IMG/VR virus record: IMGVR_UViG_3300033183_000185
Coordinates: 1 to 23,658 of that record
Source: a virus
Length of the DNA stretch: 23,658 nt
Reading direction: 5' to 3' (one strand)
Shown: piece by piece, positions 1 to 16,068 of the stretch
Layout: each line of letters opens with the position of its first letter
Position numbering within the stretch: position 1 is the first letter of the stretch
Notes under the pieces: generated by a model
Told to the model about the DNA's origin: nothing
The model's input: the letters and a program-made list of their open reading frames with translations, nothing else
Databases searched by the model: none
Made by a program: the position numbers and the translations under genes

Positions 1-1208
1 ACACCCTCCAGGGCATAGGCCCACATCTCGCTCCCAGGCGTTTGCGCTTTGTCAGACACCCAATCATACAGAACATTCATTCTGTTCTTGGTGACAGATA
101 GCTGGTTCTGCAAAAACCGTTGCTTGGTCGGCGTCTTGCCTTCCATGCGCTTCAACATAAAGCTGTCCAGGGTATCCTCGAGGAACCTAAACCCGGCGTT
201 AGGGTTTGGCCCCAGGATCTCCATGATCGCAATGTCCCGAGACATAGCATCGATGTGGCCCATCATAATATCAAACGGCTCACCCATCCCGAACTTTTCA
301 TTGTACTGCATCCAGGAGTCACCATCCTTGAACACCAAGAACCTGTGATGATTGTACTTCTTGCCAATCGCGCCAGAGCCTCGATACTTTCCAGCCTGGC
401 GTTTGTTCGCCCCTTCCATCGATATGCTTTCATATGCATCACGCAATGCTGCCTCGAGGTTAGGAGAAACCTGGATACGGCCTTCTGGATCTGTATTGCT
501 TAGAACCTTAAACGGTAACTGCGTCTTACGATCGATCATTTTATCGACGTTAAGCAATGGCAATATTTCATCGCGCCAGGCTTCGTATCCAGCCGCTCTG
601 ACCGAGATAGAGTTGTGGCGCTGTGGTAAGCCCCATCCTTCTAGGAACGGGATTGTGGACCCGGCTGCATTCGCTCGTAAGCGTAGGTATTCCGTAGCTT
701 CTGCCCAGGCTTTTGCTAGTTGCTTGGCCGCTGTGTTGCCACTGTCCTTGCCAAACAATTCAGTTAGCATGTCCTTTTGTGTCGCCTTGTTCCTGGTCGA
801 GCTAAGGAAATTGCGGCGGAAACTGACAAGAACATCAGTCATTCGGGACATGGCCATACCTCGAACGGTATCCTTTAGCCCCTCGATGTCCGGGTGTTTG
901 GACCGCACATCAAAGTCGAAAACACTTGTGAATGCTGCGTATATGTTGCCACCCTCGGCCTCATTGATCCGCTTCTTTAGATTTACCTGTGCCTGGATCT
1001 GCTTTAGACGCACCCGCTTGCGCTCTTTGACAGCAATGTTTAGCGCCTTGTTCGCCTCTGTCGTGGCTTTACTTGCCGCCGGACCTGGACCCATTTGCTT
1101 GTTGTAGCTTTCATAGAGGGTATCGAATAGCTCGAGCGCTTCATTCGCCTGGTCCTGGCTAATCACCCCAGATGTTACGCCGCCCTGAATACACGCTTTA
1201 TAACTCAT
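1..1208 (-). CDS. Large internal virion/ejection protein, C-terminus outside window
   Basis: The reading frame opens at ATG 1206-1208 and runs without a stop to the left edge, giving about 402 residues of a longer protein that begins MSYKACIQGG. Its ATG overlaps the TGA stop of the upstream 1313-residue gene (ATGA), so translation is probably coupled. The visible part is soluble, rich in charged helices, with no signal peptide or membrane segment. A short helical N-terminus (GVISQDQANEALELFDTLYE) is followed by a Lys/Arg/Gln-rich stretch at about residues 48-80. I recognise no catalytic motif in the visible part. Position at the end of the ejection cluster suggests it takes the place of the C-terminal part of a T7 gp16-like ejection protein. 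That role is inferred from gene order, not from a motif; the missing part could hold a lytic or other domain. Confidence 0.8.
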   Translation of the reverse strand, partial: MSYKACIQGGVTSGVISQDQANEALELFDTLYESYNKQMGPGPAASKATTEANKALNIAVKERKRVRLKQIQAQVNLKKRINEAEGGNIYAAFTSVFDFDVRSKHPDIEGLKDTVRGMAMSRMTDVLVSFRRNFLSSTRNKATQKDMLTELFGKDSGNTAAKQLAKAWAEATEYLRLRANAAGSTIPFLEGWGLPQRHNSISVRAAGYEAWRDEILPLLNVDKMIDRKTQLPFKVLSNTDPEGRIQVSPNLEAALRDAYESISMEGANKRQAGKYRGSGAIGKKYNHHRFLVFKDGDSWMQYNEKFGMGEPFDIMMGHIDAMSRDIAIMEILGPNPNAGFRFLEDTLDSFMLKRMEGKTPTKQRFLQNQLSVTKNRMNVLYDWVSDKAQTPGSEMWAYALEG

Positions 1209-4200
1209 ATCTGGCACACCTCTAGCTGTTTAAGGAAATCGTCCTCATCCTTGACCATCTGCTTGATTTCCGATATCGTATTGGTGGACACGTTACCATC
1301 TTCATCTTCGAGGCGGATCAACATGTCCGGATCATCAAATAAATCGGCTGTTCTCGCCTCATCGAATAACGATCCTTCTGGCATAGGATCGGTTCGACCT
1401 GTAAGCAGATCATCCATTTTTCTTTGCGCCAGCTCTCGGTCTGAGATACGCTCGGCACCAGGAATCACAACTTGCTCACCAGCGGCAGTAAGTTCTGTTG
1501 TCGTATATTCGGTGCGCAATTCAACGTCAGTAACAGGAGGAACATCCATGCGTTGGTTTATGATGGACGGGGATACACCCGTAGTTGTCTCATCAGATAA
1601 TACATTTGCCCTGGCTTGGGGCGATGGCGATTGGGCGCCCATAGATCCAGATGTCGTATTCACAGACGAAAGATCCCCAGAGGTAGACGAGAAACGAGCT
1701 TTGATTTCGTCCATGGTCATGGGTGCTGATTGGCTCAAGCTGCCAATGAACGCTTTGAACTCATCGTCTAAATCTTCTTGAACCGCGCCATACTTAACTA
1801 GCTGGCGATCCTGGGCTTCCAGGCGCATCTCCGGTGTGATCGCTGGGTCTTTCAATCCAAAGGCTTCATAGTAGTCGTGGCCGCTCCAGCCTGGCATATA
1901 TCCCTCATCGCCAGGTTTCTTGCCAATCCCCAGGTCACTTGCGTTTTCTGGCAAGTGTTGGTGCGTAACAACAGATCGATCGCCCTTGGCCTCGAGCATA
2001 CCAGGCACCCAAAGCTGCACCTCACCCATTGTGTTATCTTCGAAAATAACATTGAGCTTTGCATCGAAGTATCCAAGCGGCGTAAACTCAAACCCTTCGT
2101 TAATAACGTGCAAGCCTCGATCGGCCAAAGCATTCACAACCTTGTCTAGCTCATCTACCTTTTCAATAATAAACCCTGTCCGGGCAATATCTGTCAGGCC
2201 ACCAAAACGATATGATCCATCTGCATTTGTATATTTACGGTCTAATTTTGCTTGCGCTCGTTCTCGACTTTTCACTTTGGGCTGAGAAACAAAGATCCCC
2301 AATTCTTCGGCAATGCTTTCTGCAATTCCGGCCAACTCACGGTGATTTTTCTCACCACGTTCCAAGGCTTCATCTAAAGATTTGTTAGGACTTCTGCTTT
2401 TTTGCTCTCTCGAAAATACGTCAAACTCTGTCTGATCCGCTTCCTGGACATTAACAATCCGGCGCTTGGGCTTCTTGGGTGTCACCCCATCTTTCTCAAA
2501 CTTAACCTCTGGCTTTAGGATCTTACCCATCGCTTTGCTTTGCGTAGCTGCGGCGAACTCCTCCATCGTAAGCACTCTTGCCGGAAGCGTTGGCATTCCG
2601 GCTTCTGTGGCCACTGCATAGGTGCTGTTACCATCGAGCAATGAGTAAGTGCCATCACCATCATCATGTACTTGCAAAGGGCCGCGCTTAGTCATGCGCT
2701 GATCTTCTGGGATTAACCCTAGTTCGCTCTTTGCGGTCGTAACCATGAACTGCTTACTGTTTTCGATACCGTCCGGCCTTGCCCTCATCGGCTTAATTAG
2801 GCTTGTTGGGATCTCGACCCCATCCTCTAGGTCCAGGTAGTAACGATAATCTGGGACAATCTCATCGTTTGCGATCATCTCGCTCATTTCTTTTTGCGTA
2901 GGAAACTTCTTACCATCGTCTCCAAAGATATCGCGCTCTAGTCGCTCGATCTCTCTAACTGTTCCTTCTCCGCCTGGTTCTGCGAACTCAGTAATTTCCT
3001 GTTGCGGTTCGCTCTTATTCGTGCTGACTTCATTCGGAGGTTGGAAAGTGCGCTCGACATCGCTTCGTGATACCCGGTCAAAATCGCCCGCTTCAATTGC
3101 TCCTCGGATATCCCCGACGAATCGATCGGTGGCGGCGTTAAAATTTCCGTCTTGCTTTGCTGCCCTGGCTGCGTTGTTGAGGGCATCGGAGAGAGGTCCC
3201 TTTCGGTTGGCTGTGGCTTGGAGGAAGGCAATGGCTTGCGCATCGTTACTGACCCTTTTCTGGTTTGCATCGCGCTCGATCTTGTTACCCTCTGCCTCGA
3301 GCCGTGACGCATTCTTGTTGATGTTAGCAAAGGCCGCCTTGTCGCGTTTGATCTGATTGATTGCACCGCTTAGGATCTTAGCCCGTTCTGCATACAAGCT
3401 TTCAACTACCTGTTGCTCACCAAACAGATCCACTGTTGTCGTTGTTTCCTTGGGCGCAGCCGCCACCTGACGAGCGACCGCTTCGGCCTCGACCAGGCTA
3501 TCAGGTTTTACCTGGCGCAATACTTTGAGCGCTGGAACGTGTAGCTCTTTATCGTCAATAACTGCACCGACAACACCCGCAAACTTCTCATCGACATAGC
3601 CCTGTTCTACCAGGTCATAAGCTTCATCATCTAATCGTGCCAAATTTTTAGCATGTTGGACAAGCGCTGACTTTGGCGGCAAGTTGTCTAGCCGTGATGG
3701 ATCTATCTTTAATGCTGTCGCTGCATCGAGGGCTGTACCTGTCCCCTCTGCAATGTTTTTCATCGCTGCATCTAGGCGCACCGAAAGCTCGGTATGACCA
3801 TCGACTTCACGCTTTAGGGTGCCATACAAAACAATATTCTGGCTGGGATCTTTTGACATAATGCGACGAGCAAGCCCCAGGCGTTGGTGGCCATCTGCAA
3901 TTACCCGGCGACCGTTTGCATACTCAAACACCATAACGTCCCCGGCTGCGTCATAGTCCCATTCTTTCACGCCCTGCAATCTTTCGGTCACACCGAACTC
4001 ATCACCACCACGTTTAAACTGAAACACTGCCGCATCAACTTCGAGATCCGTAACATTGAACTTATATCTGCGCCCGTCCAGGTTATCTAAATCTCCAGCG
4101 CCCCTTGCCTCTAGCTGTGGCTCGAGCTTGTTGGGGTCTACAAGCGCGACAGGTTCCTCTGGGATCTCAATCCGTTGATTAGCTTGTAGCGCTCTATGCG

Positions 4201-5146
4201 CCTGGTCTAATCGTTGCTGATGCTCAAACGCTGCTAGGGCTTCCGAACTATGATCAAACCCGGTAAGTGGGTTGCTGTCCTGGATCTGGTCTTGCGTGTC
4301 TAATGCAGTTGCCAAGGCTCGATCTTCTGCGGGAATTGCATCAGGTCTGGCCTTGGCAATAGCCTCCCAGCCCTTCTTAGCTTGCGCTACAGTGAGGCTT
4401 CCCACTTCCTTAGTTAGACCTACCCCGGTTGCTATTCCCCGCCCTGCAAGCGGCAGTCCGGCGCCGAACGCTGCGTTTAGACCTATGTTTATTGCAAACT
4501 GTTCGCCTGTGTATTCCAGGCCAAGCTCATCATACCATCGAGCGACATCTACCTCAGAAAATGCACCGACCCCAGCGTTGATTGCTGCGTTCTGAAACAT
4601 TTGTTTCCATAGGGATTTAGACCATCCACCAAACGGCATTGTGATTGCTGTGGAAGGATCACCAAATCCAGAGAAAACTTGTCCGGTAAATCGCATAGAT
4701 GCTGCAACAAATCCTGGGTTTAATTCTGCATTCTCTGCTAGATCACGCTCATATGACTGCTTGATCTCTAGCGCCCGCTGGTTGATAGCTTCGGGCTTGA
4801 TGGCGTCATATAGCTCCGCCGATATGCTATCTTTGTTTTGCTCCGCCCAATCGTAGATCTTTTGCTCTGCTTTTTTTGCCAGGAGCGGATCGCTACCAAA
4901 ACCTGTCAGCATCATGCCCGTGCCGAACGTCGAGGGGTTCTCGAAAGTTTCACCATATTCGCTTTCGATCTCGTCAATGATTGGCCCCCAGACTTCCTGG
5001 CGGTTGAACCAATAAGAGTTAGACCCGGAACCACCGCCGTATAACGCCGCATTGAAGCCAGCTTTTAAGGTATCAAAGTTGTTGGGAATGCTGATGTTAG
5101 AGCCTTCCCCTGGCATAAGCGGTTTTGGTTCACGTTCAAAAAACAT
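1205..5146 (-). CDS. Polyvalent ejection protein: ParB-like + ParB-like + RelA/SpoT-like domains
   Basis: This is a 1313-residue multidomain protein in the ejection cluster. Residues 1-350 resemble the N-terminal part of podovirus internal virion proteins, with a Gly/Ala-rich, weakly hydrophobic stretch near 210-240. A ParB/DdrB-like domain spans about 360-500; it has the D418-G-H-Q-R422 motif and the family-typical EGTGTALDAA helix. A second ParB-like domain lies at about 770-860 with D838-G-N840. A RelA/SpoT-like nucleotidyltransferase domain spans about 925-1050: KSRERAQAKL at 959-968, metal-ligand candidate D986 in LTDIARTG, GY at 1025-1026, and E1042 in EVQLW. The C-terminus is acidic and low complexity. 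The start ATG overlaps the upstream TAA by one base, and the stop overlaps the next ATG. Such chains match the polyvalent proteins known from phages and conjugative elements, thought to enter the host with the DNA. Whether either activity is retained cannot be seen here. Confidence 0.85.
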   Translation of the reverse strand: MFFEREPKPLMPGEGSNISIPNNFDTLKAGFNAALYGGGSGSNSYWFNRQEVWGPIIDEIESEYGETFENPSTFGTGMMLTGFGSDPLLAKKAEQKIYDWAEQNKDSISAELYDAIKPEAINQRALEIKQSYERDLAENAELNPGFVAASMRFTGQVFSGFGDPSTAITMPFGGWSKSLWKQMFQNAAINAGVGAFSEVDVARWYDELGLEYTGEQFAINIGLNAAFGAGLPLAGRGIATGVGLTKEVGSLTVAQAKKGWEAIAKARPDAIPAEDRALATALDTQDQIQDSNPLTGFDHSSEALAAFEHQQRLDQAHRALQANQRIEIPEEPVALVDPNKLEPQLEARGAGDLDNLDGRRYKFNVTDLEVDAAVFQFKRGGDEFGVTERLQGVKEWDYDAAGDVMVFEYANGRRVIADGHQRLGLARRIMSKDPSQNIVLYGTLKREVDGHTELSVRLDAAMKNIAEGTGTALDAATALKIDPSRLDNLPPKSALVQHAKNLARLDDEAYDLVEQGYVDEKFAGVVGAVIDDKELHVPALKVLRQVKPDSLVEAEAVARQVAAAPKETTTTVDLFGEQQVVESLYAERAKILSGAINQIKRDKAAFANINKNASRLEAEGNKIERDANQKRVSNDAQAIAFLQATANRKGPLSDALNNAARAAKQDGNFNAATDRFVGDIRGAIEAGDFDRVSRSDVERTFQPPNEVSTNKSEPQQEITEFAEPGGEGTVREIERLERDIFGDDGKKFPTQKEMSEMIANDEIVPDYRYYLDLEDGVEIPTSLIKPMRARPDGIENSKQFMVTTAKSELGLIPEDQRMTKRGPLQVHDDGDGTYSLLDGNSTYAVATEAGMPTLPARVLTMEEFAAATQSKAMGKILKPEVKFEKDGVTPKKPKRRIVNVQEADQTEFDVFSREQKSRSPNKSLDEALERGEKNHRELAGIAESIAEELGIFVSQPKVKSRERAQAKLDRKYTNADGSYRFGGLTDIARTGFIIEKVDELDKVVNALADRGLHVINEGFEFTPLGYFDAKLNVIFEDNTMGEVQLWVPGMLEAKGDRSVVTHQHLPENASDLGIGKKPGDEGYMPGWSGHDYYEAFGLKDPAITPEMRLEAQDRQLVKYGAVQEDLDDEFKAFIGSLSQSAPMTMDEIKARFSSTSGDLSSVNTTSGSMGAQSPSPQARANVLSDETTTGVSPSIINQRMDVPPVTDVELRTEYTTTELTAAGEQVVIPGAERISDRELAQRKMDDLLTGRTDPMPEGSLFDEARTADLFDDPDMLIRLEDEDGNVSTNTISEIKQMVKDEDDFLKQLEVCQI

Positions 5147-8025
5147 TATTGAGCCTCATCCAACTTTTTAAGATTGATAGTAAACCGCTCTCGTTCACTC
5201 GGATCATTTGGGTTTGATGGGAAACTTAATGGCACATCTGTCCCTGGATAATAGAACTCATATACATATCCTGTTTTTGGGTTGCCATTGAGCAAGCGCA
5301 TTTCAAACTTATCAGTAATGTTTCTTGTCCATCTTTCTGTTCTTTCCTCTCCTGTGATTGGGTCGGTTACAACCTTGGACGCTTCCATCGATCCCCTGAT
5401 TTGATTTAATATGGCGTCTTTATCTGGGCCTAGTGCATCAAAGTCAGGCAAGTTTGAAACAAGTGTAATGTTTTCTGGGCTAAGATTGGCCAGAACATTA
5501 TCCATTTCATATTCGCCAAACGCTTGCGGCATAATCGTAGCTACACCCCGGTACTCAAGAATGCCTCCAGTTTTATGATCCCCATATCTGTCATACACTG
5601 CACCAAGAGACATATTTAGGGCTTGCATATATTTATCAGGGTTGAAATCTATCTTCCCGTCCTTATCAACATCATCTGTATCATCTACCAACTCTGAATA
5701 GATGTACCCCGCAGCTTTCTTTAAGCCCTTCATCATCCCAGTATGATCTGACAAAACCGGATCTATCATCATTATGTGTACTGATTCAGTATTAGATTGA
5801 GTTAGACCGGGGACTTTTTTTCCAGCTACATCAACTTGATTTTTACCCTCGAGGATCATCATCGCATTCTGAGCGGTTGCCGGGTTCATCAGCAATGCAC
5901 CAGCAAAGCCATACGCGGGCTGATCCGGCGCAATTTCGCTCATCATCTGACGGGCAACGTCAATTCCTGCACCCTCAAACATTGCGCTTAGAATTGACAT
6001 CTGCGTAGTAACAGGTGTCCGGGCATTCTCTGCACCATCTAGCATCTGCAAAAATTGAGCGCGTTCAGCTTTGGTAAACAACTTATATTCGCCACCAAAC
6101 TTGGACTGGGCCATATCAGCAAAATGCTTACGTTGCTGGAACTGCTCTTTAATTCTAAGCTCGATCGTTTCCGGTGTGTCATCTTCCTGGAAGGTGAAGT
6201 CAAACGGTACAAACTCTAAATCAGATCCATCTTGCTTTTGGACGCCAACCTTAGCCGCATACAAAATAGGATCTGCCTCGACTTGCTTTTGACGTTCTGC
6301 AACAAACTCGAGCAACGTGTCACGCAAAACCATATTGTTACGCTGTGTAATTGGGTTTTGCTCTTGGATAACCCTTTGATTTAGCTCTTGCACGGCTTTA
6401 GCCATTTGCTCCTTGGACATACCGGGCAAAGCTTTTAGTAATGTCCGGGCATCGACTAGAAATTCCATCGCGTCTTGGATGGCTTCATATTTATCTGTTC
6501 GATACTCAATCGGGATCTCCCCAAGACCCGCTATAAGATCAGAGATCTGCGCATTGTTTGGCATCTCATTGATGTTTGTCGCTCTTTCGAATATCGCATT
6601 TAGCACAGTAACCTGGTCACTCAGATCAGATACCTTGCTTGACCACATCGCAGTTTTTTCTTTTCGTTTTTCGTGAGCAATTCGCTGTTGCTCCGCGACA
6701 ATCTCATCCATCGTTGTAATTGCACTGTTAGTCAGTGCAGTTATTTTTTCTTCCAGGGCAATATCTTCTGCAATCTTTGCATCTTCGATAGCTTTGGCGG
6801 AGGCAAATAGTTTCTGCATCATGTTCGACACTTCGACCTCGAACACCGTATCCGCTCCCTCTCCCTCGTAACCAGGAATGCCTTGCTCTTTTATAATATC
6901 AATTGCATCGGCTAATTCTTCTGAACTCATCTTTTTCCAATTGTCCAAATTGGCAGCGATAAGTTTTAGATCTGCCTGGGCTTGGCGATTTTCTGCACTG
7001 AACACACCGTTTGTTTCAATACGGGTATCCATGTTTGTAAACCATTCCGCATCCGGCATCTTGCCACCATTTAGGGCAATCTTTTGCTTTTCTGAAATAT
7101 CCGCAGCAATAGATCTAGCTTCCCCCTCTGAGGCTCGGATTTTTACATTAAGAACGGTTTGAGCTTTGTTCGCAAACTGTAGGTCTTTTGTATAAGTACC
7201 CGTGATGCTGCGCTTTCCTGTAACGATATTATCTATAAATTGCTCAAGATCTTCTGCGTTGGAGTTCTGGATTTTATACGAAACCCACTGTTCCTCCGCT
7301 GCTTCTCTGGTAGCTGCCGCCCAGGCATCGGCCTTCTCTTGTGACCATCCTTGGTTTTCAACATAGTCTTTCGCCTTGATTGCAATCGACATGTTTAGAA
7401 CCCCGGTGTCTGCATCTTGGCCATACAGAGCCGGGATCTCTTTGATAATTGTCATCGCATCATTGCGACCGACCTCAGTACGCCGCGCGGCTGCAATCTG
7501 CGCTTGCTTCTTGATGTACCAATCAGAATAACGCAGCCCGGCTTTTTCACTTGCGGTAGATAGGTTCGAGCGCAAATTCCCCGCCGCTATTGGGTCGATG
7601 GTTGCAAGTGTTGCCGCATAACCGTCTGTAAGATCCGCAAGTTGCGCCTGGACCTGGGTGAATGGCGTTACGTTGCGCTCGGCCTCATCCAAGATCTTTG
7701 TAATCTGTAGCTCTGCATCATTCTGTATTTCTGTTTGCGCAATACGATTGGCTGCTTCATATGCGGTTTTTTCTTCCAACCCTCTTGGGCCGCCCTGGGC
7801 TTGTAGTTGCTCCAGTAGTGGTTGCGCACCCTCAGTGCGAACCCGCTCGAGGCCAGACTGTACCGCTTCTTCCTCTGCTTTTTTATAAAGGAAGTCACCC
7901 ATGCGATCGAACGCCTGGGACATGGCTTGCCCAGAGCGAGTTTGACCACGATAACCAGCGTAATCTATGTCTTGGAACTGTCTAGGTCTTACGCCTAATC
8001 TCTGGTAACGTGGTAGCTTGCCCAT
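5146..8025 (-). CDS. Internal virion/ejection protein, T7 gp15-like by position
   Basis: A 959-residue soluble, mostly helical protein with no signal peptide or membrane segment. The N-terminus is short and basic (MGKLPRYQRLGVRPRQ); the rest is rich in Glu, Ala, Gln and Lys, with probable coiled-coil stretches at about 50-130 and 415-470. Its place between a gp14-like small protein and the very large ejection proteins is the place of T7 gp15, which forms part of the conduit that carries DNA across the cell envelope. It is longer than T7 gp15 (about 750 residues). No enzyme motif was found. The stop codon TAA shares one base with the start of the next gene, suggesting coupled translation in a fixed stoichiometry. 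Assignment rests on size, composition and gene order. Confidence 0.82.
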   Translation of the reverse strand: MGKLPRYQRLGVRPRQFQDIDYAGYRGQTRSGQAMSQAFDRMGDFLYKKAEEEAVQSGLERVRTEGAQPLLEQLQAQGGPRGLEEKTAYEAANRIAQTEIQNDAELQITKILDEAERNVTPFTQVQAQLADLTDGYAATLATIDPIAAGNLRSNLSTASEKAGLRYSDWYIKKQAQIAAARRTEVGRNDAMTIIKEIPALYGQDADTGVLNMSIAIKAKDYVENQGWSQEKADAWAAATREAAEEQWVSYKIQNSNAEDLEQFIDNIVTGKRSITGTYTKDLQFANKAQTVLNVKIRASEGEARSIAADISEKQKIALNGGKMPDAEWFTNMDTRIETNGVFSAENRQAQADLKLIAANLDNWKKMSSEELADAIDIIKEQGIPGYEGEGADTVFEVEVSNMMQKLFASAKAIEDAKIAEDIALEEKITALTNSAITTMDEIVAEQQRIAHEKRKEKTAMWSSKVSDLSDQVTVLNAIFERATNINEMPNNAQISDLIAGLGEIPIEYRTDKYEAIQDAMEFLVDARTLLKALPGMSKEQMAKAVQELNQRVIQEQNPITQRNNMVLRDTLLEFVAERQKQVEADPILYAAKVGVQKQDGSDLEFVPFDFTFQEDDTPETIELRIKEQFQQRKHFADMAQSKFGGEYKLFTKAERAQFLQMLDGAENARTPVTTQMSILSAMFEGAGIDVARQMMSEIAPDQPAYGFAGALLMNPATAQNAMMILEGKNQVDVAGKKVPGLTQSNTESVHIMMIDPVLSDHTGMMKGLKKAAGYIYSELVDDTDDVDKDGKIDFNPDKYMQALNMSLGAVYDRYGDHKTGGILEYRGVATIMPQAFGEYEMDNVLANLSPENITLVSNLPDFDALGPDKDAILNQIRGSMEASKVVTDPITGEERTERWTRNITDKFEMRLLNGNPKTGYVYEFYYPGTDVPLSFPSNPNDPSERERFTINLKKLDEAQ

Positions 8026-8036
8026 CTTTTAAAACC

Positions 8037-8468
8037 TTATAACTGTCCAAACTTGAATATTGCAGACCCTATTGTGCTGAATGCATTGTATCTAGCTGTA
8101 GTCATAGCGGCATCGCCAGCCATTCGATATTGATCTGCCTGTATCGCAGCTTGATTTTCTGCCAGAACTGCGTTGTCAGCCGAAGTATGAAACTCCCTCG
8201 CCGCTTCTGCCGTGTTAGCTGTAGCAATCGTATAAGCCGCGCCGCCTCCCTTTGCGCTTCTCGCAATGACTGCCGCCAAGTTATCATTTAATCTAGCAAG
8301 GACATCTGCGCCTTGTTGCTTGTAGGCAATTGCCTCGGATCTGCCTTTCATAATCGCATCCGCTGCTTTTGCATCATACATGCGCTGTTCAGCACGGCCG
8401 GCCTTCATTTGGCCCATCGCGCTCATCGCGCTTGTTGCTAAGAATAAAGGCGCTGCTACTGATGACAT
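8037..8468 (-). CDS. Small internal virion protein, T7 gp14-like
   Basis: A 143-residue Ala-rich protein. The N-terminus (SSVAAPLFLATSAMSAMGQM) is mildly hydrophobic and is followed by a long amphipathic helical region (about 22-130) with regularly spaced Ala, Gln and charged residues, including EAAREFHTSADNA. This composition and the position directly after tail tubular protein B and before two giant ejection proteins match the T7 gp14 class, the first ejected protein that enters the outer membrane. It is somewhat shorter than T7 gp14 (about 196 residues). The gene lies 3 bases after tail tubular B, and 11 bases separate it from the 959-residue gene. The function is known for the family; the assignment here is by resemblance and context. 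Confidence 0.78.
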   Translation of the reverse strand: MSSVAAPLFLATSAMSAMGQMKAGRAEQRMYDAKAADAIMKGRSEAIAYKQQGADVLARLNDNLAAVIARSAKGGGAAYTIATANTAEAAREFHTSADNAVLAENQAAIQADQYRMAGDAAMTTARYNAFSTIGSAIFKFGQL

Positions 8469-8471
8469 GAC

Positions 8472-10670
8472 TTAGTTCCCCACACTCATTTTGTATTCCA
8501 GACCTAGAACCGTCATAGGCAATGGAACTGTTTGCGTTAATGTTATCTGACCCGTTGCGCTGTAACCAAGGATACCGTGCGCAGTTTTTACGCCAGTAAA
8601 CCCCTCGATCGCTGTATCCAAAACATCCTCCCCGAAGTTTCTAAAGGATATTTGCTTTCCGTTTATAACAAGATCTTTTGTTTGATTAACAATAGCGTCA
8701 ACCTGGACAATCCGCTTTCGAACGCCCTGGACAGATCCAGATTGAAGAACTGGCTCGGTTGGCATCGTCTTAACGGTAACTGTGTAATCTAGCCCGACCT
8801 GGTATTCACTTGTTGCTGCCGAAGCAAATGTAATTGTAAACGGTGTCGCCGGGACCGTCTGTACTGGCTCCACAACGCCATCACGAACTATCTCGACCTC
8901 TTTCCCCTCGAGGTGGTCCATCGTTACTGAGGAAGCCGCTCCGCCGCTCTTGGCGCTATCCACGGTTAAATCAGGGTTAAACTTTTCCAGGATATATTTT
9001 GTTGCGCTGTTTACAGTACGTTTCACGATCACATAGACATCTGAGATCTCAACCGCGACTGCGATAAACTCCCCGTCAGTTGTAAACTGGCTGGGCGCAA
9101 TGACGTTCTGCCCGACCAGCAAAGAATACACGGCCATAGATCCATCATCCCCATTGACCAGGAACAAGGTATCCGCCTCATCTGTTGAAGTTGATCGACG
9201 CGCGGCCAGATCGACCGGGTTTTTAATAAGGTGTGACGAAAGTACCGAAACCTGTTGGATCTGATACGACCTGGTAGTTGAACCAAACTGGAAGGCATTT
9301 AGAGATTTACCCTGGCGCTGCACAAATACAGACGCACCATTCAGATCCTCGGTAGGAACGCCAGGTTTTGATCCAAGCCTGGTTTGTGGGCGTACAAGAA
9401 AATTAGAAGGCGTTACCGGGCTATCCTCTGATTGGATAACAACGAACTCACCTCCGGTTGTGAAGATCCGCAAGTCTGCCGATGCAATAATATTCACAAT
9501 AGAGTTAAGCTGATTGGTGTTGATCGTGGCTTCGACCCCCTCATCATCTAACCCAGAACCAGTATTAAAGTTGAAATAATCAATAACATTGGAACCCCAA
9601 ATTGTATTGGGGCGTGATTTCGATCCACCGAAATACAAACGGCCTTCATGGAAGGTCGCAGATTTGGGCCATCCCCGATCATTCGACCAAACATCTTCAT
9701 AGCCATATTCACCCTCATGTTCTCCAGCTACGATTGCATTCGTATCGAAAAACGGGACTTCGACCACGGCCTTCATTTCTGTGGTACTTACAAATTCAAC
9801 ATACCTTGCTCGACCAAAAGTTGTTATGTTTTGAGCATAGCCATTAACTGAATTTTCTGAAAATGGGTCTACACTATAAACACTTGTGTTGTCGGGCTGT
9901 GTGTCCCACGCCGGATAAACAGTAGCAACCTTTGTTGAGCCTACATAATCCGTAATAAATCTTTCCTGACCTGATCCGGTCCCCGAAGTGATTTTAATTT
10001 GTAAGCCATTTGCATCATCATCGCTTGTGTATCCACTCCCACTTTTCAGTGTAATTGTATTTGCACCACCCGCCTGTGCCGTGCCAGTTTCGGATGTATG
10101 GTTCGATGCAGTGATTGTTATATTCCCATCAACCGCACTAGGGGTGATATCATAGTTTGGCTGATGCGCCACGAACGCATACGCATACTTGGGAAGGTTC
10201 GTAAGCGGTAGGTTCTCCAGGGTCCAGTTATCATCCGCATTGCGCACCAGGCGTTTTGTTTGCAGATCCTCATGGCAAAGGATCAAAGTATCCACCGCCT
10301 GGGTATATTGCAAATCATCAAGAATATCAGAGGTGATAGATGCAGCCGCCAGATAATCATTGCCTGATCCATTGATGTCGGTTTGCTGCACCCCGTCCTT
10401 GTAGACATAGACCCGACCAACAACGAACACCAGGAGATAGCTATCTGTTACGCTAAACTCGAACGGGATCAGCTTAAACTTGGTGAAGCTCGATCCAAAG
10501 TCTGTGACGAACTCTAAGCCATCCCGGCGGCGCACTCCGCCCTGGGGCTGCACGATTACGTTAGTCGCTTCCTCGAGGGCATTCTGATATTGCTGCAAGT
10601 CGGTACGCGCACGAAGTAACGGATCTAGTTCCCCAACAGAGAAATTTGTTTGAAACTGTGTTACGCGCAT
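8472..10670 (-). CDS. Tail tubular protein B-like (T7 gp12 type nozzle)
   Basis: A 732-residue protein whose N-terminus (VTQFQTNFSVGELDPLLRAR, residues 3-22) and the following NVIVQPQGGVRRRDGLEFV are the typical opening of podovirus tail tubular B/stabilization proteins: a tail-nozzle protein announces itself with F-S-x-G-E-L-x-P and G-G-x-x-R-R-x-G. The segment GWPKSATFHEGRLYFGGSKSRPNTIWGS near the middle is another hallmark of this family. The remainder is beta-rich. It forms the distal tail tube on which fibres or spikes sit. The start codon follows directly after the stop of tail tubular A with no gap. No lytic insert domain was recognised. Confidence is high because the motifs and the order A-B-ejection proteins agree. 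Confidence 0.93.
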   Translation of the reverse strand: MRVTQFQTNFSVGELDPLLRARTDLQQYQNALEEATNVIVQPQGGVRRRDGLEFVTDFGSSFTKFKLIPFEFSVTDSYLLVFVVGRVYVYKDGVQQTDINGSGNDYLAAASITSDILDDLQYTQAVDTLILCHEDLQTKRLVRNADDNWTLENLPLTNLPKYAYAFVAHQPNYDITPSAVDGNITITASNHTSETGTAQAGGANTITLKSGSGYTSDDDANGLQIKITSGTGSGQERFITDYVGSTKVATVYPAWDTQPDNTSVYSVDPFSENSVNGYAQNITTFGRARYVEFVSTTEMKAVVEVPFFDTNAIVAGEHEGEYGYEDVWSNDRGWPKSATFHEGRLYFGGSKSRPNTIWGSNVIDYFNFNTGSGLDDEGVEATINTNQLNSIVNIIASADLRIFTTGGEFVVIQSEDSPVTPSNFLVRPQTRLGSKPGVPTEDLNGASVFVQRQGKSLNAFQFGSTTRSYQIQQVSVLSSHLIKNPVDLAARRSTSTDEADTLFLVNGDDGSMAVYSLLVGQNVIAPSQFTTDGEFIAVAVEISDVYVIVKRTVNSATKYILEKFNPDLTVDSAKSGGAASSVTMDHLEGKEVEIVRDGVVEPVQTVPATPFTITFASAATSEYQVGLDYTVTVKTMPTEPVLQSGSVQGVRKRIVQVDAIVNQTKDLVINGKQISFRNFGEDVLDTAIEGFTGVKTAHGILGYSATGQITLTQTVPLPMTVLGLEYKMSVGN

Positions 10671-11288
10671 TTAGCTTCTCACTTCGATTAGAGAATAATC
10701 CTCAACGATCTGTGTGGATTGCCCACGGGCATCGATGTTCATCGCTTGACGCATTTTGCCACCTCGTCCGTTTTCAAAAGGCGCACCGTATGCTATCGCA
10801 CGAAAATACTCCGCTTTGGCTGCCTGGTCAGTAATAACGATTGCTAACTCGGAAGCGAGTGCATTTCTCAATAAGTCTACAAAATACACGGGCATTTTGC
10901 TTTCGGAAACGCTTTGCTGATAATCGATGTAAACCGTCTGCATGTTTGTATAAAGTTCTTCGCCATAGATCTCCCACCCATAACGACGAGATCTTTCGGC
11001 GGTTCCGCTTGTCTCAAAAACCGCCAAAACACCAGAAAGCATATCACCAGGTAATTGATACGCATACTGCCATTCATTTACCGGGGCCGTTGAAAGCCGT
11101 GATATCTGTTGTTTTTTGAGAGACCAGGACCAGACATATGAACTGATGATTGTATCTCGTAAGTCCGGGTATAATCGAGAGCAAGCTTGCGCTGCGTCTG
11201 TGCCTTCGGTGAAGGACGTAATAGGCGAAGCTCCCAAGAGGATCAGTGCATCCGAGCAAATTGAAATATCTGTGTCACCAGTTGCCAT
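10671..11288 (-). CDS. Tail tubular protein A-like (T7 gp11 type adaptor)
   Basis: A 205-residue protein matching the tail tubular A/gp11 family: an early segment ICSDALILLGASPITSF, then ACSRLYPDLRDTIISSYVWSWSLK, then YAYQLPGDMLSGVL and MPVYFVDLLRNALASELA. These are the helix-bundle segments that dock onto the portal ring and form the upper tail ring. The length agrees with the T7 protein (196 residues). The start ATG at 11286-11288 is preceded by GGAGG with a 6-base spacer. A GC-rich hairpin lies in the 51-base gap upstream, the only sizeable gap in the tail block. It is immediately followed by tail tubular B, as in T7-like phages. Confidence 0.93.
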   Translation of the reverse strand: MATGDTDISICSDALILLGASPITSFTEGTDAAQACSRLYPDLRDTIISSYVWSWSLKKQQISRLSTAPVNEWQYAYQLPGDMLSGVLAVFETSGTAERSRRYGWEIYGEELYTNMQTVYIDYQQSVSESKMPVYFVDLLRNALASELAIVITDQAAKAEYFRAIAYGAPFENGRGGKMRQAMNIDARGQSTQIVEDYSLIEVRS

Positions 11289-11311
11289 TGTAATCCTCCA
11301 GGTAAGTGTGG

Positions 11312-11331
11312 GGGGCCAGTTGCCCAGCCCC
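11312..11331 (-). terminator. GC-rich hairpin between capsid block and tail genes (no U tract)
   Basis: GGGGC (11312-11316) and GCCCC (11327-11331) can pair with a 10-base loop in the - strand transcript. It lies between the decoration-like gene and tail tubular A, the same place as T7 terminator T-phi. No run of U follows the stem, so a classical intrinsic terminator is not supported; it may act as an attenuator, an mRNA end stabiliser or nothing. Confidence 0.3.
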
Positions 11332-11339
11332 TCGGAGTA

Positions 11340-11618
11340 TTAGTCTGTGTCGGTCGATGTGATTGTTAGACCGTCTGTTACGTCAACAACGCCGCTTGCG
11401 TTAGACGCCACATAAACCCATGAAAGAGCTTGTGTCGCACCTGTTGAAGAACGCACTAGAATAACGTCCCCTACCGCAAGTGTATCTGACAAATCGTTGA
11501 AGTAACCAGATGTGTTTACTGTCGCAATCGTGTCGGCTGTTGAGTAGCCATAAAGACCAGGCGAATCGCCCTTTTTACCGCCGCCATAATTAACGAAACC
11601 TGTTGTGCTAAAAGCCAT
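11340..11618 (-). CDS. Small head decoration-like protein
   Basis: A 92-residue Gly/Ser/Thr-rich, beta-type protein directly downstream of the capsid gene, 12 bases away, with a good ribosome site (AAGGAG before ATG 11616-11618). It opens MAFSTTGFVNYGGGKKGDSPGLYGY and continues with the pattern GYFNDLSDTLAVGDVILV. I recall similar small proteins next to capsid genes in many podoviruses, usually unnamed or called head decoration proteins. No membrane segment or enzyme motif is present. The position within the capsid transcript suggests it is made in amounts close to the capsid protein. The structural role is inferred from context. Confidence 0.75.
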   Translation of the reverse strand: MAFSTTGFVNYGGGKKGDSPGLYGYSTADTIATVNTSGYFNDLSDTLAVGDVILVRSSTGATQALSWVYVASNASGVVDVTDGLTITSTDTD

Positions 11619-11630
11619 TGTTCAGTCTCC

Positions 11631-12464
11631 TTATTCAGTACATGAGATCTTGACGATGCCTTCATCGTCGATCGCTACCGCACCCGCAGAGAACATTGAG
11701 CTTACTAGGAACGATGTTTTCTCTGGGATATAGTTGACCTCTGACTTTTGCGCCATTGATTCAGCATAACCCATTGAGTCCTGGTGCCATGCGAAACATG
11801 TGCGTGTAGATGGTTTTGGAACACCACCTTCGTCACGATCACCCATTGTGTGGATCTGGAAGCCCATGAACGAATTGATCTCGCCACGAACAAGCGCTTT
11901 TACTGATGCGAAGTCAGCAGATGTGATCTCTGTCTCGCCTAGTAGAGCGTCAAGCTGTGATGAGTGCATCAACAAGTGGCGGCCTTCCGCTGGTACGTTC
12001 TTGTCGTTCAGCGCTTTTGCAGCCGCACGTAGCTTCTCGATGTTCATGTTTGAACCAGCGCCACCAACAGATGTTGCAACTGTGGATGGTGAAGATGCTG
12101 CGTTCAACGCATCGATGCAGATCTGGTCCATACGACGAGCGATTGACTTAGATACAACCTGTACCAACTCACGGCGCTCATCAAAGTTCACATGTGATTG
12201 GTGGAAGATATCTGAGTATTCAGCCGCAATGTAATCTGTCATTGTCGCTGTTACTTGTGAATAAGTCACGTTCAACGGTGTAACGTCTGTTTGTGGAACG
12301 CGAACTGTAGCAACACCTTTACCGATTTTCGGGAACTTTACAGTGTTACCTTGGACACCAGAACGTGTACGCATGGTGCCGCGAAGTAGGGCTTCGCCCT
12401 GATATGCCTGTTTAACTTCTTCGTCAAAAAGAGTTACAAAGGCGTTAGTAATACTCTGCGCCAT
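11631..12464 (-). CDS. Major capsid protein
   Basis: A 277-residue protein that matches a widespread phage capsid family, presumed HK97 fold: an N-terminal helix (SITNAFVTLFDEEVKQAYQG), then TVKFPKIGKGVATVRVPQTDVTP with the VTATMTDYIAAEYSDIFH strand, then FDERRELVQVVSKSIARRMD (spine helix region) and a C-terminal half with PAEGRHLLMHSSQLDALLGE and SFMGFQIHTMGDRDEGG. It is shorter than T7 gp10A (344 residues). The gene follows the scaffold gene, as usual. It has the strongest ribosome site in the late block (perfect AGGAGG, 8-base spacer) and a 176-base structured leader, both consistent with very high expression. No slippery site or extended second form comparable to T7 gp10B was seen. Confidence 0.93.
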   Translation of the reverse strand: MAQSITNAFVTLFDEEVKQAYQGEALLRGTMRTRSGVQGNTVKFPKIGKGVATVRVPQTDVTPLNVTYSQVTATMTDYIAAEYSDIFHQSHVNFDERRELVQVVSKSIARRMDQICIDALNAASSPSTVATSVGGAGSNMNIEKLRAAAKALNDKNVPAEGRHLLMHSSQLDALLGETEITSADFASVKALVRGEINSFMGFQIHTMGDRDEGGVPKPSTRTCFAWHQDSMGYAESMAQKSEVNYIPEKTSFLVSSMFSAGAVAIDDEGIVKISCTE

Positions 12465-12472
12465 AGCAGAAG

Positions 12473-12478
12473 CCTCCT
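12473..12478 (-). promoter_or_regulatory. Perfect Shine-Dalgarno of the capsid gene
   Basis: AGGAGG on the - strand with 8 bases to ATG 12462-12464. Most late genes here have shorter or weaker sites, so this agrees with strong capsid synthesis. Confidence 0.8.
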
Positions 12479-12530
12479 ATTAGGTTTCCATTAGAACGCA
12501 TACTGTTGGCCGATGTATCTCGGGCAGTTT

Positions 12531-12620
12531 GCTTGCGCGAATGTGGCCGCGCCCACCACTGGTTTACCAGATCTACGGGCCGCGCAGCGGTTAGCCGTTA
12601 CACCACATATACACGCAAGC
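12531..12620 (-). ncRNA. Branched structured leader upstream of capsid gene
   Basis: The 176-base gap between scaffold and capsid genes has nested inverted repeats. Outer stem GCTTGCG (12531-12537) pairs with CGCAAGC (12614-12620); next ATGTGG (12541-12546) with CCACAT (12603-12608); then CGCGCCC (12548-12554) with GGGC-GCG (12577-12584, one bulge); inside it CTGG/CCAG closes a 4-base loop (12559-12570); a side hairpin AGCGG/CCGTT spans 12586-12599 with one G-T pair. The transcript can therefore fold into a branched, cloverleaf-like element in the capsid mRNA leader. It lacks a TTC-type T loop and anticodon arm, so it is not called a tRNA. A processing, stability or terminator role is possible; none is shown. 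Confidence 0.45.
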
Positions 12621-12625
12621 TTGCT

Positions 12626-12640
12626 ATATTGCAACAATAT
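12626..12640. repeat. Perfect inverted repeat right after the scaffold stop
   Basis: ATATTG and CAATAT flank a 3-base centre, starting directly beyond the scaffold stop codon. It is adjacent to a 10-base palindrome GCAAGCTTGC (12615-12624) that shares bases with the outer stem of the capsid leader. No U tract follows, so it is listed as a repeat and not as a terminator. Confidence 0.5.
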
Positions 12641-13414
12641 CTAGCTGTTGGCCGCAGCCCATTGTTGTTCGATCTTCGTGCGCCACACTGGATCGCTTGT
12701 CCATCGAGGGTCTGCGATAGCCTGGCGAAGATCCTGGACATTCATTTCCGGTGTCGCAACAACGGGTTCTGTTGGGATGCCTTCGTTGGTATATCCCTGG
12801 ATAAACTTGACCATCGCATTGATGCTATCAGCATTGTTTAAGCTCATTGCCAGGGCATTGCGTTCCGCCTGGTTCAATGGCGCTTTCGTGATGTGGTTCT
12901 CGAGATATGTAATTTTCTCTTGAGCCTTTGCGCCTAGCTTCTGCATTTCCTGTTGCTGATCGTATTGCATCGCTGCATCTGCATCACCGCTTATTTCCAG
13001 GATGTTGCCAGCCAATTCCTCAAACGCCTGTTGAGATATGCCATACTTCTGCGCCCACTCCTGATACGCGATTGTAGCCGGATCTTCCAGATCGAGACCT
13101 CGATCAACCAAATCTTCCACATCGTAACCATTTTCAGGAGCTTTATGCTTCCCGGCTTTGAATGCCTTTTCAAGCTCGGCATAGCTTTTTGCGAGTTTTT
13201 CAACATCGGGTCCATCCTCATCCCAAAATTTCTGTGGATAATAATCAGGCCGTTCTAACGGCTCAAAGTCATCATCTACATCGTTAAAGGATGCATCCTC
13301 GGGCTGTTCATGCACCGGAATAGGATCTTCGGTTTGAACTTCTTGTTCTTGCTGAAAGTTTACAAGCCCTTCCTGGGGCGCTTCCGTTTCTGATACTTGT
13401 GTCTCATCAGACAT
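12641..13414 (-). CDS. Scaffolding protein
   Basis: A 257-residue strongly acidic protein between the portal and capsid genes, the standard place of the scaffold. The N-terminal third is full of Glu, Gln and Asp; then DYYPQKFWDEDGPDVEKLAKSYAELEKAFKAGK (about 59-91) is the phrase commonly seen in podovirus scaffolds. The middle and C-terminal parts are helical (QEMQKLGAKAQEKITYLENHI), fitting the helical tail that contacts the capsid. It assembles inside the procapsid and leaves before or during packaging. Its start overlaps the stop of the Bbp19-like gene by 8 bases. The family assignment is by composition, motif and position. Confidence 0.88.
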   Translation of the reverse strand: MSDETQVSETEAPQEGLVNFQQEQEVQTEDPIPVHEQPEDASFNDVDDDFEPLERPDYYPQKFWDEDGPDVEKLAKSYAELEKAFKAGKHKAPENGYDVEDLVDRGLDLEDPATIAYQEWAQKYGISQQAFEELAGNILEISGDADAAMQYDQQQEMQKLGAKAQEKITYLENHITKAPLNQAERNALAMSLNNADSINAMVKFIQGYTNEGIPTEPVVATPEMNVQDLRQAIADPRWTSDPVWRTKIEQQWAAANS

Positions 13415-13664
13415 TGTTTGACCTTTCCACCCTGCGCTCGATCAAGCGAACAAGCTCGGCCATGCCAGTTCTGACATATCCGTGACTTGCATCCTCACCT
13501 GGATACCACGAGGGTTGTTCGATAGTTATCTGCCGCAAGTGACTTAACACCTTTTGGCCTTCCTCAGATTTAAAGAGCCGACCATACAATAGATCGATCT
13601 CATCCGCCTTTGGCGGTTCAGCGAACGCCGGACTTAAACCTTCCCACCCTTCGACTGAACTCAT
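13407..13664 (-). CDS. Bbp19-like small phage protein
   Basis: An 85-residue protein between portal and scaffold. The core LYGRLFKSEEGQKVLSHLRQITIE, followed by a spacer and TGMAELVRLIERRVE, matches the pattern of the Bbp19 family (named after Bordetella phage BPP-1), small proteins of unknown function found at this spot in many short-tailed phages. It is helical at both ends with a Pro/Trp/Gly-containing link. The start overlaps the portal stop (ATGA), and the stop overlaps the scaffold start. A role in head assembly is inferred from the conserved position only. Confidence 0.75.
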   Translation of the reverse strand: MSSVEGWEGLSPAFAEPPKADEIDLLYGRLFKSEEGQKVLSHLRQITIEQPSWYPGEDASHGYVRTGMAELVRLIERRVERSNNV

Positions 13665-15220
13665 TGCATTGCCTCCGCGACTTGCTCATCGCCTGGCAAA
13701 GCTTGTTGCTGTTGTGCCATCATCTGTTGCTGCATTTGCATCTGCATCATTTGCTGTTCTTCCGCTGTGTTAAGAACGCGCTGATCGATGCCCATCTTTT
13801 CAGCAATAAATGCAATGGCCTCTTGTAGATTGATCGCTGTTACCCCGGCTGGACCCATAGCCTGGGCAATCTGCATAAAGTTTAACACCTTGTTTACTTC
13901 CTCCATCTTTGGCGCTTCTGCCAGTGGAGACACGGGTGTTACCTTAATCTGCACACCGTTTACCTTGAGCGGCAAATCGATCAAGCCCTGGCGATCCAGG
14001 ACAAACAATACCCGCGCGACCAAGGGGTTCATAATCTCTGTCATTAAGCGACCAAACGCAGATCCCAGGTTTGTTGCCAGTTCCGCCTGGCGCTGGGCGA
14101 TCTCCGTGGCTGATCGAGCCGACATTGTGTCTGGCGGCAAAGTATCGTCCATCATCATCTTTTTGATGTTCACACGCAAATCCTGGAGCAAGATCTGACT
14201 TGTGTTGAAGTCCCCGGCTCTAGGGAGAGGAGCCAGGGACGCACCCCCTGGGCCACCATTCCGAGCGACAGGAATGATTGCTCCTGGCTGGATCTTGATG
14301 TTCTGCGGGTTCAGTACCCCATCATCCGCAGCGAGGAATACACCAGAGATCGCCAAGCTTGCGTTCTTCAACACTAGCTCGAGGGTTTTGTTTAGCGTCT
14401 TGATGTCGGCAATCGCATCGACCAAAGGCCCACGGCCATAAACTTCCCCGGCTGTTTTGCTAAATCGCGCAACGATAAATGGGCTTGAGTCCATTTCACG
14501 ATAGACAAGCTCCTGGGCTTTAGCTGGCCAGATAACATGATAGTGATATCTGCCGCTTTCCTGGTCGAACAAGATCACGTCGAATAGATCTAGCTCCTCG
14601 CTTGGGCGCCGAACCATTGCATCCTCGAGATCTGGTGTCATTTGAATGTCTGGGAACTCACGCTGTATCGCTTCCGCCTTGATACGCAGCTTGCGATATA
14701 CGTTATCGATTGTCCCGTTTGCGCCTTCCTCAATTGCCACTAGGTATTGAGGGACTGCAGTAAACCGAATTGGTGTGACCTCATCCCCAGGCATCACCAT
14801 CATCACGGCTGTACCCACGCATAGATCAAGCAAGAACTCACCCATCGCTAGATCAAAACTTGTCTGACGTAGCTGATCAAACATGATATCAACATATGCA
14901 TCGAGGATCTCTTGTGCCCGTGGCCGCTCCTGCAATGGGATAGCTGCCCCAGGTTCTAGCTTGCACCAGTGACGGTTAGGCGGGAACAATCCCGCTTGCA
15001 TACGGTTTGCAAAGCGTTTGGTCGAGGACATTGCTGTACTGTCAAACACCCGCTGCATTTTATTTTTGCCAGGCGTTTTGCCTTCCCAGTATCCGCCATA
15101 AAGGTTGCGCTGGGGCAGGGCATATTCGTAACAATCTTCATAGATTGATCTAAATTCTTCTTTACGCGCCTGTGCCTTAGCTTCGCGCTGCATGACTTCT
15201 TTTACGTTTAGCTTAGGCAT
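13661..15220 (-). CDS. Portal / head-to-tail connecting protein
   Basis: A 519-residue protein of the podovirus head-to-tail connecting family (T7 gp8 type). Hallmarks: EDCYEYALPQRNLYGG near residue 30, then RVFDSTAMSSTKRFANRMQAGLFPPNRHWCKL (about 57-88), PFIVARFSKTAGEVYGRGPLVDAI (about 248-271), and DTLPPDTMSARSATEIAQR (about 366-384). The length equals that of T7 gp8 (536) closely. It forms the 12-fold ring through which TerL pumps DNA and on which the tail adaptor docks. The C-terminus is a Gln/Met-rich low-complexity tract (QQMMQMQMQQQMMAQQQQ). The start overlaps the stop of the DUF6321 gene by 8 bases. Confidence 0.95.
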   Translation of the reverse strand: MPKLNVKEVMQREAKAQARKEEFRSIYEDCYEYALPQRNLYGGYWEGKTPGKNKMQRVFDSTAMSSTKRFANRMQAGLFPPNRHWCKLEPGAAIPLQERPRAQEILDAYVDIMFDQLRQTSFDLAMGEFLLDLCVGTAVMMVMPGDEVTPIRFTAVPQYLVAIEEGANGTIDNVYRKLRIKAEAIQREFPDIQMTPDLEDAMVRRPSEELDLFDVILFDQESGRYHYHVIWPAKAQELVYREMDSSPFIVARFSKTAGEVYGRGPLVDAIADIKTLNKTLELVLKNASLAISGVFLAADDGVLNPQNIKIQPGAIIPVARNGGPGGASLAPLPRAGDFNTSQILLQDLRVNIKKMMMDDTLPPDTMSARSATEIAQRQAELATNLGSAFGRLMTEIMNPLVARVLFVLDRQGLIDLPLKVNGVQIKVTPVSPLAEAPKMEEVNKVLNFMQIAQAMGPAGVTAINLQEAIAFIAEKMGIDQRVLNTAEEQQMMQMQMQQQMMAQQQQALPGDEQVAEAMQ

Positions 15221-15497
15221 TCTTGTTCCTCTTACTTATGGCCGCTGCCTTCTTACGCGCATCTGCTTTTGACGAAGCACCCCAGGCACGGAGGGATAGT
15301 AGCAGCCGGGTGGGATTACCCCGACTATCGCGCTCCGGCCCGGGGTTCCCCGCCATCCGAGCCAGGAAGGACGCCCGACGAGGATTGTCGCCTTTCTTCA
15401 CCGGAGGCTTCAGGTTCGATCCTGATTTCCGTTTGAAGTAGGCCCGACCAGCGGCGTTCAAACCGCCTTTAGGATTTTGATGTGCTTTTTTTACCAC
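15213..15497 (-). CDS. DUF6321-like protein, start uncertain (possible frameshift with upstream gene)
   Basis: The core NPKGGLNAAGRAYFKRKSG ... NPRRASFLARMAGNPG ... NPTRLLLSLRAWGASSKADARKKAAAI is typical of DUF6321 proteins, small very basic phage proteins of unknown function. The frame stays open back to 15569, but the only start there is a TTG without a ribosome site. A GTG at 15495-15497, with AGAAGG upstream, gives 94 residues and is used here. The start lies inside the preceding 46-residue gene in another frame, exactly at an A7 run (T7 at 15486-15492 on +). A +1 slip there would join PRGKK to AHQNPKGG in one protein, which reads like a natural DUF6321 N-terminus. So this could be one gene split by slippage or by a sequencing indel. 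It overlaps the portal start. Confidence 0.7.
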   Translation of the reverse strand: MVKKAHQNPKGGLNAAGRAYFKRKSGSNLKPPVKKGDNPRRASFLARMAGNPGPERDSRGNPTRLLLSLRAWGASSKADARKKAAAISKRNKNA

Positions 15498-16067: not shown

Positions 16068-16068
16068 T

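Follow-up and report, generated by a model that had tools for sequence, protein, structure and literature searches.

The stretch of DNA analyzed here (the window) comprises 23,658 nucleotides of a viral record (IMGVR_UViG_3300033183_000185) and encodes, on its minus strand, a head and tail module followed by genes in the positions of a T7-like ejection module (Table 1). In the order of transcription these are the terminase, the head-tail adaptor, the major head protein, two tail proteins, a gp14-like protein, P0002, P0001, and P0003. P0001 lies directly after the genes in the gp14 and gp15 positions, as expected of a T7-like ejection-module gene; P0002 is assigned as a putative gp15-type protein from synteny only. 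P0003, which is homologous to the "virion structural protein" DVVG_00009 of the Dunaliella viridis virus SI2, has its likely start codon (ATG) at 1208-1210, so that it overlaps the stop codon of P0001. SI2 shows the same order of genes. Judged from this synteny and from what is known of the T7 ejectosome (PMC8954989), P0001 would be located in the virion and ejected from it. A tblastn search with full-length P0001 in 50,697 phage records matched only SI2 and Ruegeria phage 45A6, and no sequence similarity to T7 gp16 was found. P0001 contains no strong hydrophobic segment, and no MuF domain was detected in it with Pfam or PHROGs. An additional 118-aa ORF with a TTG start (15213-15569, minus strand) is matched by PHROGs without an assigned function; several of these represent the C-terminal ends of longer phage proteins.

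P0001 is composed of a constant N-terminal part, a ParB-like domain, a helical region, a payload slot, and a constant C-terminal tail. Within the slot, the window, L035, L036, and L072 have a segment with the motif DGNSTY ahead of the SYNTH domain; this segment is absent from L005 and L006, and its ParB/Srx-like identity is tentative, being read from sequence with no profile match. The same ParB module is also found within a 3912-aa protein of Ruegeria phage 45A6 (L003:9811-21549) and in large proteins of three prophage-like loci (L121, L122, L124). SI2 (L004, NC_023841) is recorded as a green-alga virus, yet this tailed phage has an ejection module of the T7 type that is related to those of alphaproteobacterial prophages, and its host label deserves doubt. 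Prophages such as those of Aureimonas and Bradyrhizobium suggest alphaproteobacterial hosts for the family.

Table 1. Features of the window, with the evidence for each assignment.
Feature	Position	Strand	Evidence
P0003, virion structural protein after P0001, cut by window end	3..1217	minus	phrog_684, 5.7e-69
P0001, 1313-aa ejection-type protein	1205..5146	minus	ORF; ortholog alignment; conserved position before P0003/P0006-like gene
P0001 constant C-terminal tail, ending ...LEVCQI (relatives ...RLxxCxx)	1208..1381	minus	Ortholog alignment
P0001 variable payload slot, residues ~740-1255	1382..2929	minus	SI2 alignment; cassette census; DNA breakpoints; PBECR1 loci
P0001 Tas1-type SYNTH (RelA/SpoT-fold) payload domain, residues ~917-1125	~1772-2398	minus	PDB sequence and profile matches; AF2 model; fold search
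P0001 second, tentatively ParB/Srx-like segment, motif DGNSTY, residues ~770-870	2540..2840	minus	Sequence reading and alignment
P0001 ParB-like domain and helical region, residues ~355-665	3152..4084	minus	phrog_10691 and phrog_21
P0002, 959 aa, gp15 (tunnel protein) position	5146..8025	minus	ORF; homologs adjoin relatives L001 and L036
Internal virion protein, 143 aa, gp14-like position	8037..8468	minus	phrog_418, 4.3e-5
Head and tail module	8472..18334	minus	PHROGs
Tail proteins	8472-11288	minus	PHROGs
Major head protein	11631-12464	minus	PHROGs
Portal/adaptor	13661-15220	minus	PHROGs
Terminase large subunit	16799-18334	minus	PHROGs

Fold, clade, and active site of the payload domain

Among all PDB chains searched with phmmer, Tas1 (6ox6_A) was the best match of P0001 residues 900-1130 (E 1.5e-10) and no RelA or SpoT chain was matched; the whole 1313-aa protein matched Tas1 as its sole PDB chain (2.1e-9). 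A domain profile built from 27 sequences matched Tas1 at 9.8e-51 and SaEAS at 4.7e-4. An AlphaFold2 model of the domain (pLDDT 82.5, pTM 0.79) likewise returned Tas1 as the best fold match in the PDB (E 9.2e-9, probability 1.0), followed by SaEAS, CapRel, SpoT, and RelP. As far as computation goes, the RelA/SpoT fold of the window domain is established, and within this fold the domain groups with the toxic pyrophosphokinases of the Tas1/Apk clade and not with the RelA/SpoT housekeeping (p)ppGpp synthetases. The Pfam RelA_SpoT model, all PHROGs, and NCBIfam do not detect the window domain; for RelA_SpoT this reflects a limit of the Pfam model, as the fused relative L020 also falls below its cut-off.

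The active-site positions of the domain are K959, K967, D986, R989, G1025-Y1026, D1028/K1030, E1042, and Q1044. K959, K967, D986, and R989 are invariant in all 37 ejection-type proteins and all 30 other relatives compared, E1042 is kept in 36/36 scorable ejection-type proteins and in the same 30 others, and G1025-Y1026 is kept in nearly all relatives. In the alignment, D986, R989, E1042, and Q1044 are equivalent to SaEAS D121, R124, E182, and Q184, and the D121A substitution inactivates SaEAS (PMC12691689). The donor-site and metal/catalytic residues of the window domain look intact. Two features are particular to the window copy: a glycine at position 1097, where arginine is kept in 25 of the 29 scorable ejection-type relatives, and an insertion of ~28 aa at 1057-1084, which forms a loop beside the active site and is of low confidence or disordered in the AF2 model.

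A first-pass annotation had proposed, from sequence, a RelA/SpoT-fold domain of the (p)ppGpp synthetase type at residues ~925-1050 of this ejection-position protein, to be checked by structure prediction. The fold and its location are borne out by sequence, profile, and model, each leading to Tas1, and the domain proves to be longer than had been thought (Table 1). K959-S960, D986, G1025-Y1026, and E1042 are found at the positions given for them, with the equivalents of D986 and E1042 kept in all scorable relatives. The proposed KS-x-K signature survives in part: only K959 and K967 are general, as S960 is replaced in every other ejection-type relative.

The enzymatic type has to be revised, as can be seen from the acceptor loop. 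This loop reads GYFDAK in the window and GYxDxK in 36/36 scorable ejection-type proteins (one with SY for GY), compared with GYSGxx in most other phage relatives and GYSGVN in Tas1, and it is unlike the loop of any characterized enzyme compared; the GYxDxK SYNTH proteins appear to form a new subfamily, as far as can be read from their sequences. The acceptor motif is GxN in the adenosine-specific Apk2 and SxH in guanosine-specific enzymes (PMC12226406), and the GxN following GY is absent from the window domain. As GYFDAK is neither SxH nor GxN and the domain falls in the Tas1/Apk clade, the evidence does not support synthesis of (p)ppGpp. An ordinary (p)ppGpp synthetase, which would raise (p)ppGpp at entry and drive the host into a stringent state, would share the RelA/SpoT fold, and enzymes of this kind do appear lower down in the fold list; however, the nearest relative, Tas1, is a (p)ppApp maker and the guanosine-recognition motif is replaced. 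We consider this reading quite improbable and have rejected its simple form, as the domain has its affinity to Tas1 and lacks SxH.

The loop also bears on a second possibility, that the domain pyrophosphorylates the CCA end of tRNA in the manner of FaRel2 or CapRel and so stops host translation. CapRel is among the fold matches, the conserved basic residue of GYxDxK could suit an RNA acceptor, and another cassette of the same slot, PBECR1, is a predicted RNase. Sequence and profile nevertheless favor the metabolite-modifying Tas1 clade, and a stop in translation at entry would harm the phage as well, making a tRNA target unlikely.

When the domain or the whole protein served as a single-sequence query, scans of viral contigs returned nothing or one truncated contig, so that an alignment including the Tas1 piece and the solo small alarmone synthetase of L002 was needed to search them; a plasmid collection contained no match to the domain. 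The relatives include phage proteins of ~420 aa with a fused Tas1-type SYNTH domain (L007-L011 and L014-L034; e.g., L008:4701-5960 and L020:7287-8549). These were at one time read as MuF fusions for L008-L034, a reading that was dropped when Pfam gave an N-terminal XkdF-type prohead protease domain (PF14550) in the two proteins tested. A convergent HD-type hydrolase gene lies ~250 bases downstream of the ~420-aa SYNTH genes (e.g., L008:6183-6704, minus strand), and the two are likely an immunity pair; such a hydrolase is found close by in about 25 of these relatives and at the solo synthetase of L002 (faecal phage MT835636, unannotated), where the Tas1-like synthetase adjoins an HD-type alarmone hydrolase (5914-6528 and 6849-7322). 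In L012 (5502-8564), a 1020-aa phage protein has a MuF-like N-terminal part, which an intein-like segment flanked by HPHC and CRCHAIP seems to interrupt, followed by a SYNTH domain. In L017, L038, and L039 the SYNTH domain is located in giant phage ORFs of >3500 residues that are open at the contig end, as in polyvalent proteins.

The payload slot and its exchange

A scan of viral contigs with an alignment of the ParB region identified 394 relatives of P0001, of which the best 80 were analyzed. The slot, which has the constant helical region on one side and the constant tail on the other, holds a zeta-toxin kinase (zeta) cassette in 34 of these 80 loci, the SYNTH type of the window (rel) in 28, and a second SYNTH type (relB) in seven; it holds none in eight, and the remaining three loci end too early to be scored. 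Two cassette types were never found in one slot among these best 80 of 394 loci. When collapsed at 90% identity, 45 distinct complete proteins remain (17 rel, 16 zeta, 6 relB, and 6 empty). The slot of the SI2 ortholog DVVG_00008 is also empty. A PBECR1 RNase domain (PF18809) fills the slot in two Aureimonas prophage-like loci (L128:5633-9016 and L133:5411-8989), and three further loci from the genome collection carry the SYNTH type in it. The SYNTH domain of the window is therefore one of several interchangeable payloads of a slot, a context that the first-pass annotation had missed.

Zeta cassettes are recognized by Pfam PF06414 (7.6e-20 and 9.9e-18 in the two tested). The relB cassettes (L040, L049, L050, L074, L075, L103, and L117; e.g., L103:8201-8785) share the hallmarks SILAKKPWHK...HIRDSYR...GHLLFEEWR and are 81-89% conserved across different backbones. 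A relB sequence finds no PDB match; by profile comparison relB is related to the window SYNTH type (probability 95.5, E 1.4e-8), and a model of modest confidence (pLDDT 65) matches small alarmone synthetases by fold. None of the slot cassettes matches a PADLOC model.

Mapped on a backbone tree of 79 proteins, built on the ParB-like and helical region as a quick tree in which the window and SI2 have long branches, the cassettes changed at least 25 times, the minimum possible being 3. The exchange can be seen at the level of DNA in pairs of loci that differ in payload. L064 (zeta) and L075 (relB) are 99.2% identical in the upstream and 99.1% in the downstream flank, and L044 (rel) and L045 (zeta) are 97.4% and 95.9% identical, respectively; further pairs of lower identity are L040/L041, L052/L081, L090/L103, and L115/L117. 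The breakpoints of these swaps coincide at about base 8100-8150 of the locus. Assembly chimeras might conceivably account for some swaps, which is made less likely by the many independent pairs and by their shared, in-frame breakpoint. One-for-one exchange in such a slot appears to be new for T7-like ejection proteins.

Pairwise dN/dS lies at 0.05-0.17 in rel cassettes and at 0.02-0.24 in zeta cassettes, with about 0.05 in relB, and such low values indicate that the payloads are maintained as proteins. This has to be weighed against the possibility that the window domain has decayed or survives as a remnant with a purely structural role, as might be suggested by the glycine in place of R1097, the 28-aa insertion near the active site, and the fact that the slot can be empty. 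The donor-site and metal/catalytic residues are, however, all intact in the window, its relatives are under purifying selection, and the domains that replace it in the slot are likewise enzymes, with toxin folds recognized by Pfam. We therefore regard a remnant as rather improbable.

No linked immunity gene was found at the ejection-type loci. In 69/69 complete loci the ejection gene and the structural gene that follows it share 4 or 13 bases, whichever payload is present. A search for hydrolases with PF13328 was set aside after it missed even the positive records, and was redone with the L008 hydrolase as the query. This query matched in 5/5 protease-type records searched and in neither the window nor 18 other ejection-type records, all of which are record fragments; its sensitivity as a single sequence is limited, as it missed the divergent hydrolase adjoining the L002 synthetase. 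Given the fragmentary records and the missed L002 hydrolase, an unlinked immunity gene for the ejection-type payloads is possible.

Proposed function and comparison with known systems

The explanation we favor, with a probability of roughly 0.7, is that the window domain functions as a pyrophosphokinase of the Tas1 type and that the ejection protein of a T7-like podovirus carries it as a payload, in an exchangeable slot close to the C-terminus. Computation supports this through the fold, the clade, the intact donor-site and catalytic residues, the purifying selection on relatives, the position in the ejection module, and the repeated exchange of cassettes; the lack of a strong hydrophobic segment and of similarity to T7 gp16, the loss of R1097 together with the loop insertion in the window copy, and the atypical acceptor loop count against it. 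P0001 would be synthesized late, become part of the virion, and leave it together with the DNA, bringing the payload to the cytoplasm of the infected cell. There it may use ATP to pyrophosphorylate the 3'-OH group of an acceptor, which could be an adenine nucleotide, a tRNA end, or some other ribonucleotide, and a nucleotide or RNA pool would be drained or modified early in infection. The phage might thereby be favored over host metabolism, host defense, or a rival. The other payloads of the slot (zeta kinase, relB, and PBECR1 RNase) would play similar parts against different targets. An adjacent immunity gene could be dispensable if synthesis of the enzyme occurs late and the cell producing it keeps it inactive or sequestered.

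Late structural genes are by their nature expressed in the producing cell, and delivery is an inference; the enzyme might accordingly act there, late in infection, in nucleotide signaling, lysis timing, or the exclusion of rivals, and not be injected. The fusion at the ejection position, the constant parts on both sides of the payload, and the lack of a separate antitoxin fit delivery better, and action in the producing cell seems very unlikely. A more serious proposal concerns the benefit of delivery: the swappable enzymes may serve in counter-defense, removing or modifying nucleotides, signals, or RNAs that a host defense needs at entry. Rapid exchange of payloads between near-identical phages is what would be expected under host-specific selection, and the loci have no linked immunity gene; on the other hand, no direct link to a defense system was found, and the cassettes match no PADLOC model. 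Counter-defense is possible, if somewhat doubtful, and it is compatible with delivery of a working pyrophosphokinase by the ejection protein and inseparable from it here. Beyond the window, a broader scheme is conceivable, to which we give appreciable weight while placing it below even odds: marine and alphaproteobacterial T7-like phages may carry polymorphic, immunity-free injected enzymes in one slot of an ejection protein, with the GYxDxK SYNTH domain using an acceptor new for its fold and payloads being swapped to match host physiology or defenses. Podoviral ejection proteins have been studied mainly as a DNA conduit, and an exchangeable-enzyme slot would make one of them a vehicle for enzymes at the first moment of infection. 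The phages of the swap pairs provide a natural near-isogenic set differing mainly in payload, and a role of effectors at the entry stage is thus directly testable.

A RelA/SpoT-type domain in a protein of a phage virion module is not new in kind, given the precedents in polyvalent proteins, in MuF-Apk2 proteins, and in UniProt, where some proteins of uncultured phages are already named RelA/SpoT or DdrB-like. The first-pass annotation knew of no ejected alarmone enzyme in this phage type; as it was worded its observation is not new, since RelA/SpoT domains in virion-packaged phage polyvalent proteins and MuF-fused phage (p)ppApp synthetases are already in print (PMC5512222, PMC12226406, PMC12691689). 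In the open-licence literature we found no description of a toxin-type payload slot in podoviral ejection proteins or of the GYxDxK subfamily. The parts of Iyer 2017 consulted assign RelA/SpoT, ParB-like, PBECR, and zeta domains to polyvalent proteins of phages or to MuF fusions and propose that polyvalent proteins are delivered together with DNA; in those parts, no T7-like ejection carrier, one-for-one slot exchange, or GYxDxK subfamily is described (PMC5512222). In its architecture and neighbors P0001 agrees with the polyvalent proteins, being long, multidomain, and encoded beside virion genes, with ParB-like and effector domains. The P0001 family also combines a constant carrier with exchangeable toxin domains, as polymorphic toxins do, although its payload is not at the extreme C-terminus and is followed by a constant tail.

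The Apk2-type (p)ppApp synthetases of MuF proteins in temperate phages have been characterized (PMC12226406, PMC5576092, PMC12691689) and, like P0001, join a phage structural carrier to a variable toxin, with the Apk-type synthetase at the C-terminus of the structural protein (PMC12226406, PMC5576092). Their carrier, a MuF head protein, comes from siphophages that are mostly temperate and has the immunity genes iapK and aph1 downstream, whereas that of P0001 belongs to a podoviral ejection module, continues in a constant tail after the payload, and is overlapped by the next structural gene. Tas1/Apk1 of Pseudomonas aeruginosa (PDB 6ox6) has the same fold as the window domain, with 31% identity over 177 aligned residues, the same K, D, R, E, and Q positions, and the same C-terminal GHxYYE motif. 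This (p)ppApp synthetase effector differs from the window domain in being delivered by a T6SS and accompanied by the immunity protein Tis1, and in its loop (GYSGVN versus GYFDAK, or GYxDxK across the ejection-type family).

With T7 gp14, gp15, and gp16 the window shares gene order and position and the presence of long proteins after the tail genes (PMC8954989). Ejection proteins of the T7 type are known to be mosaic in their enzyme domains, with a peptidoglycan hydrolase in gp15- or gp16-like proteins (PMC8954989). The enzyme domain of T7 gp16 opens peptidoglycan, and toxins are not mentioned in that review (PMC8954989); gp16 also has putative membrane regions, in contrast to P0001 with no strong hydrophobic segment. 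The closest counterpart of the carrier itself is DVVG_00008 of SI2, an ortholog with a ParB region 37% identical to that of P0001, the same neighbors, and the same C-terminal tail, which at 792 aa differs from P0001 in carrying no payload.
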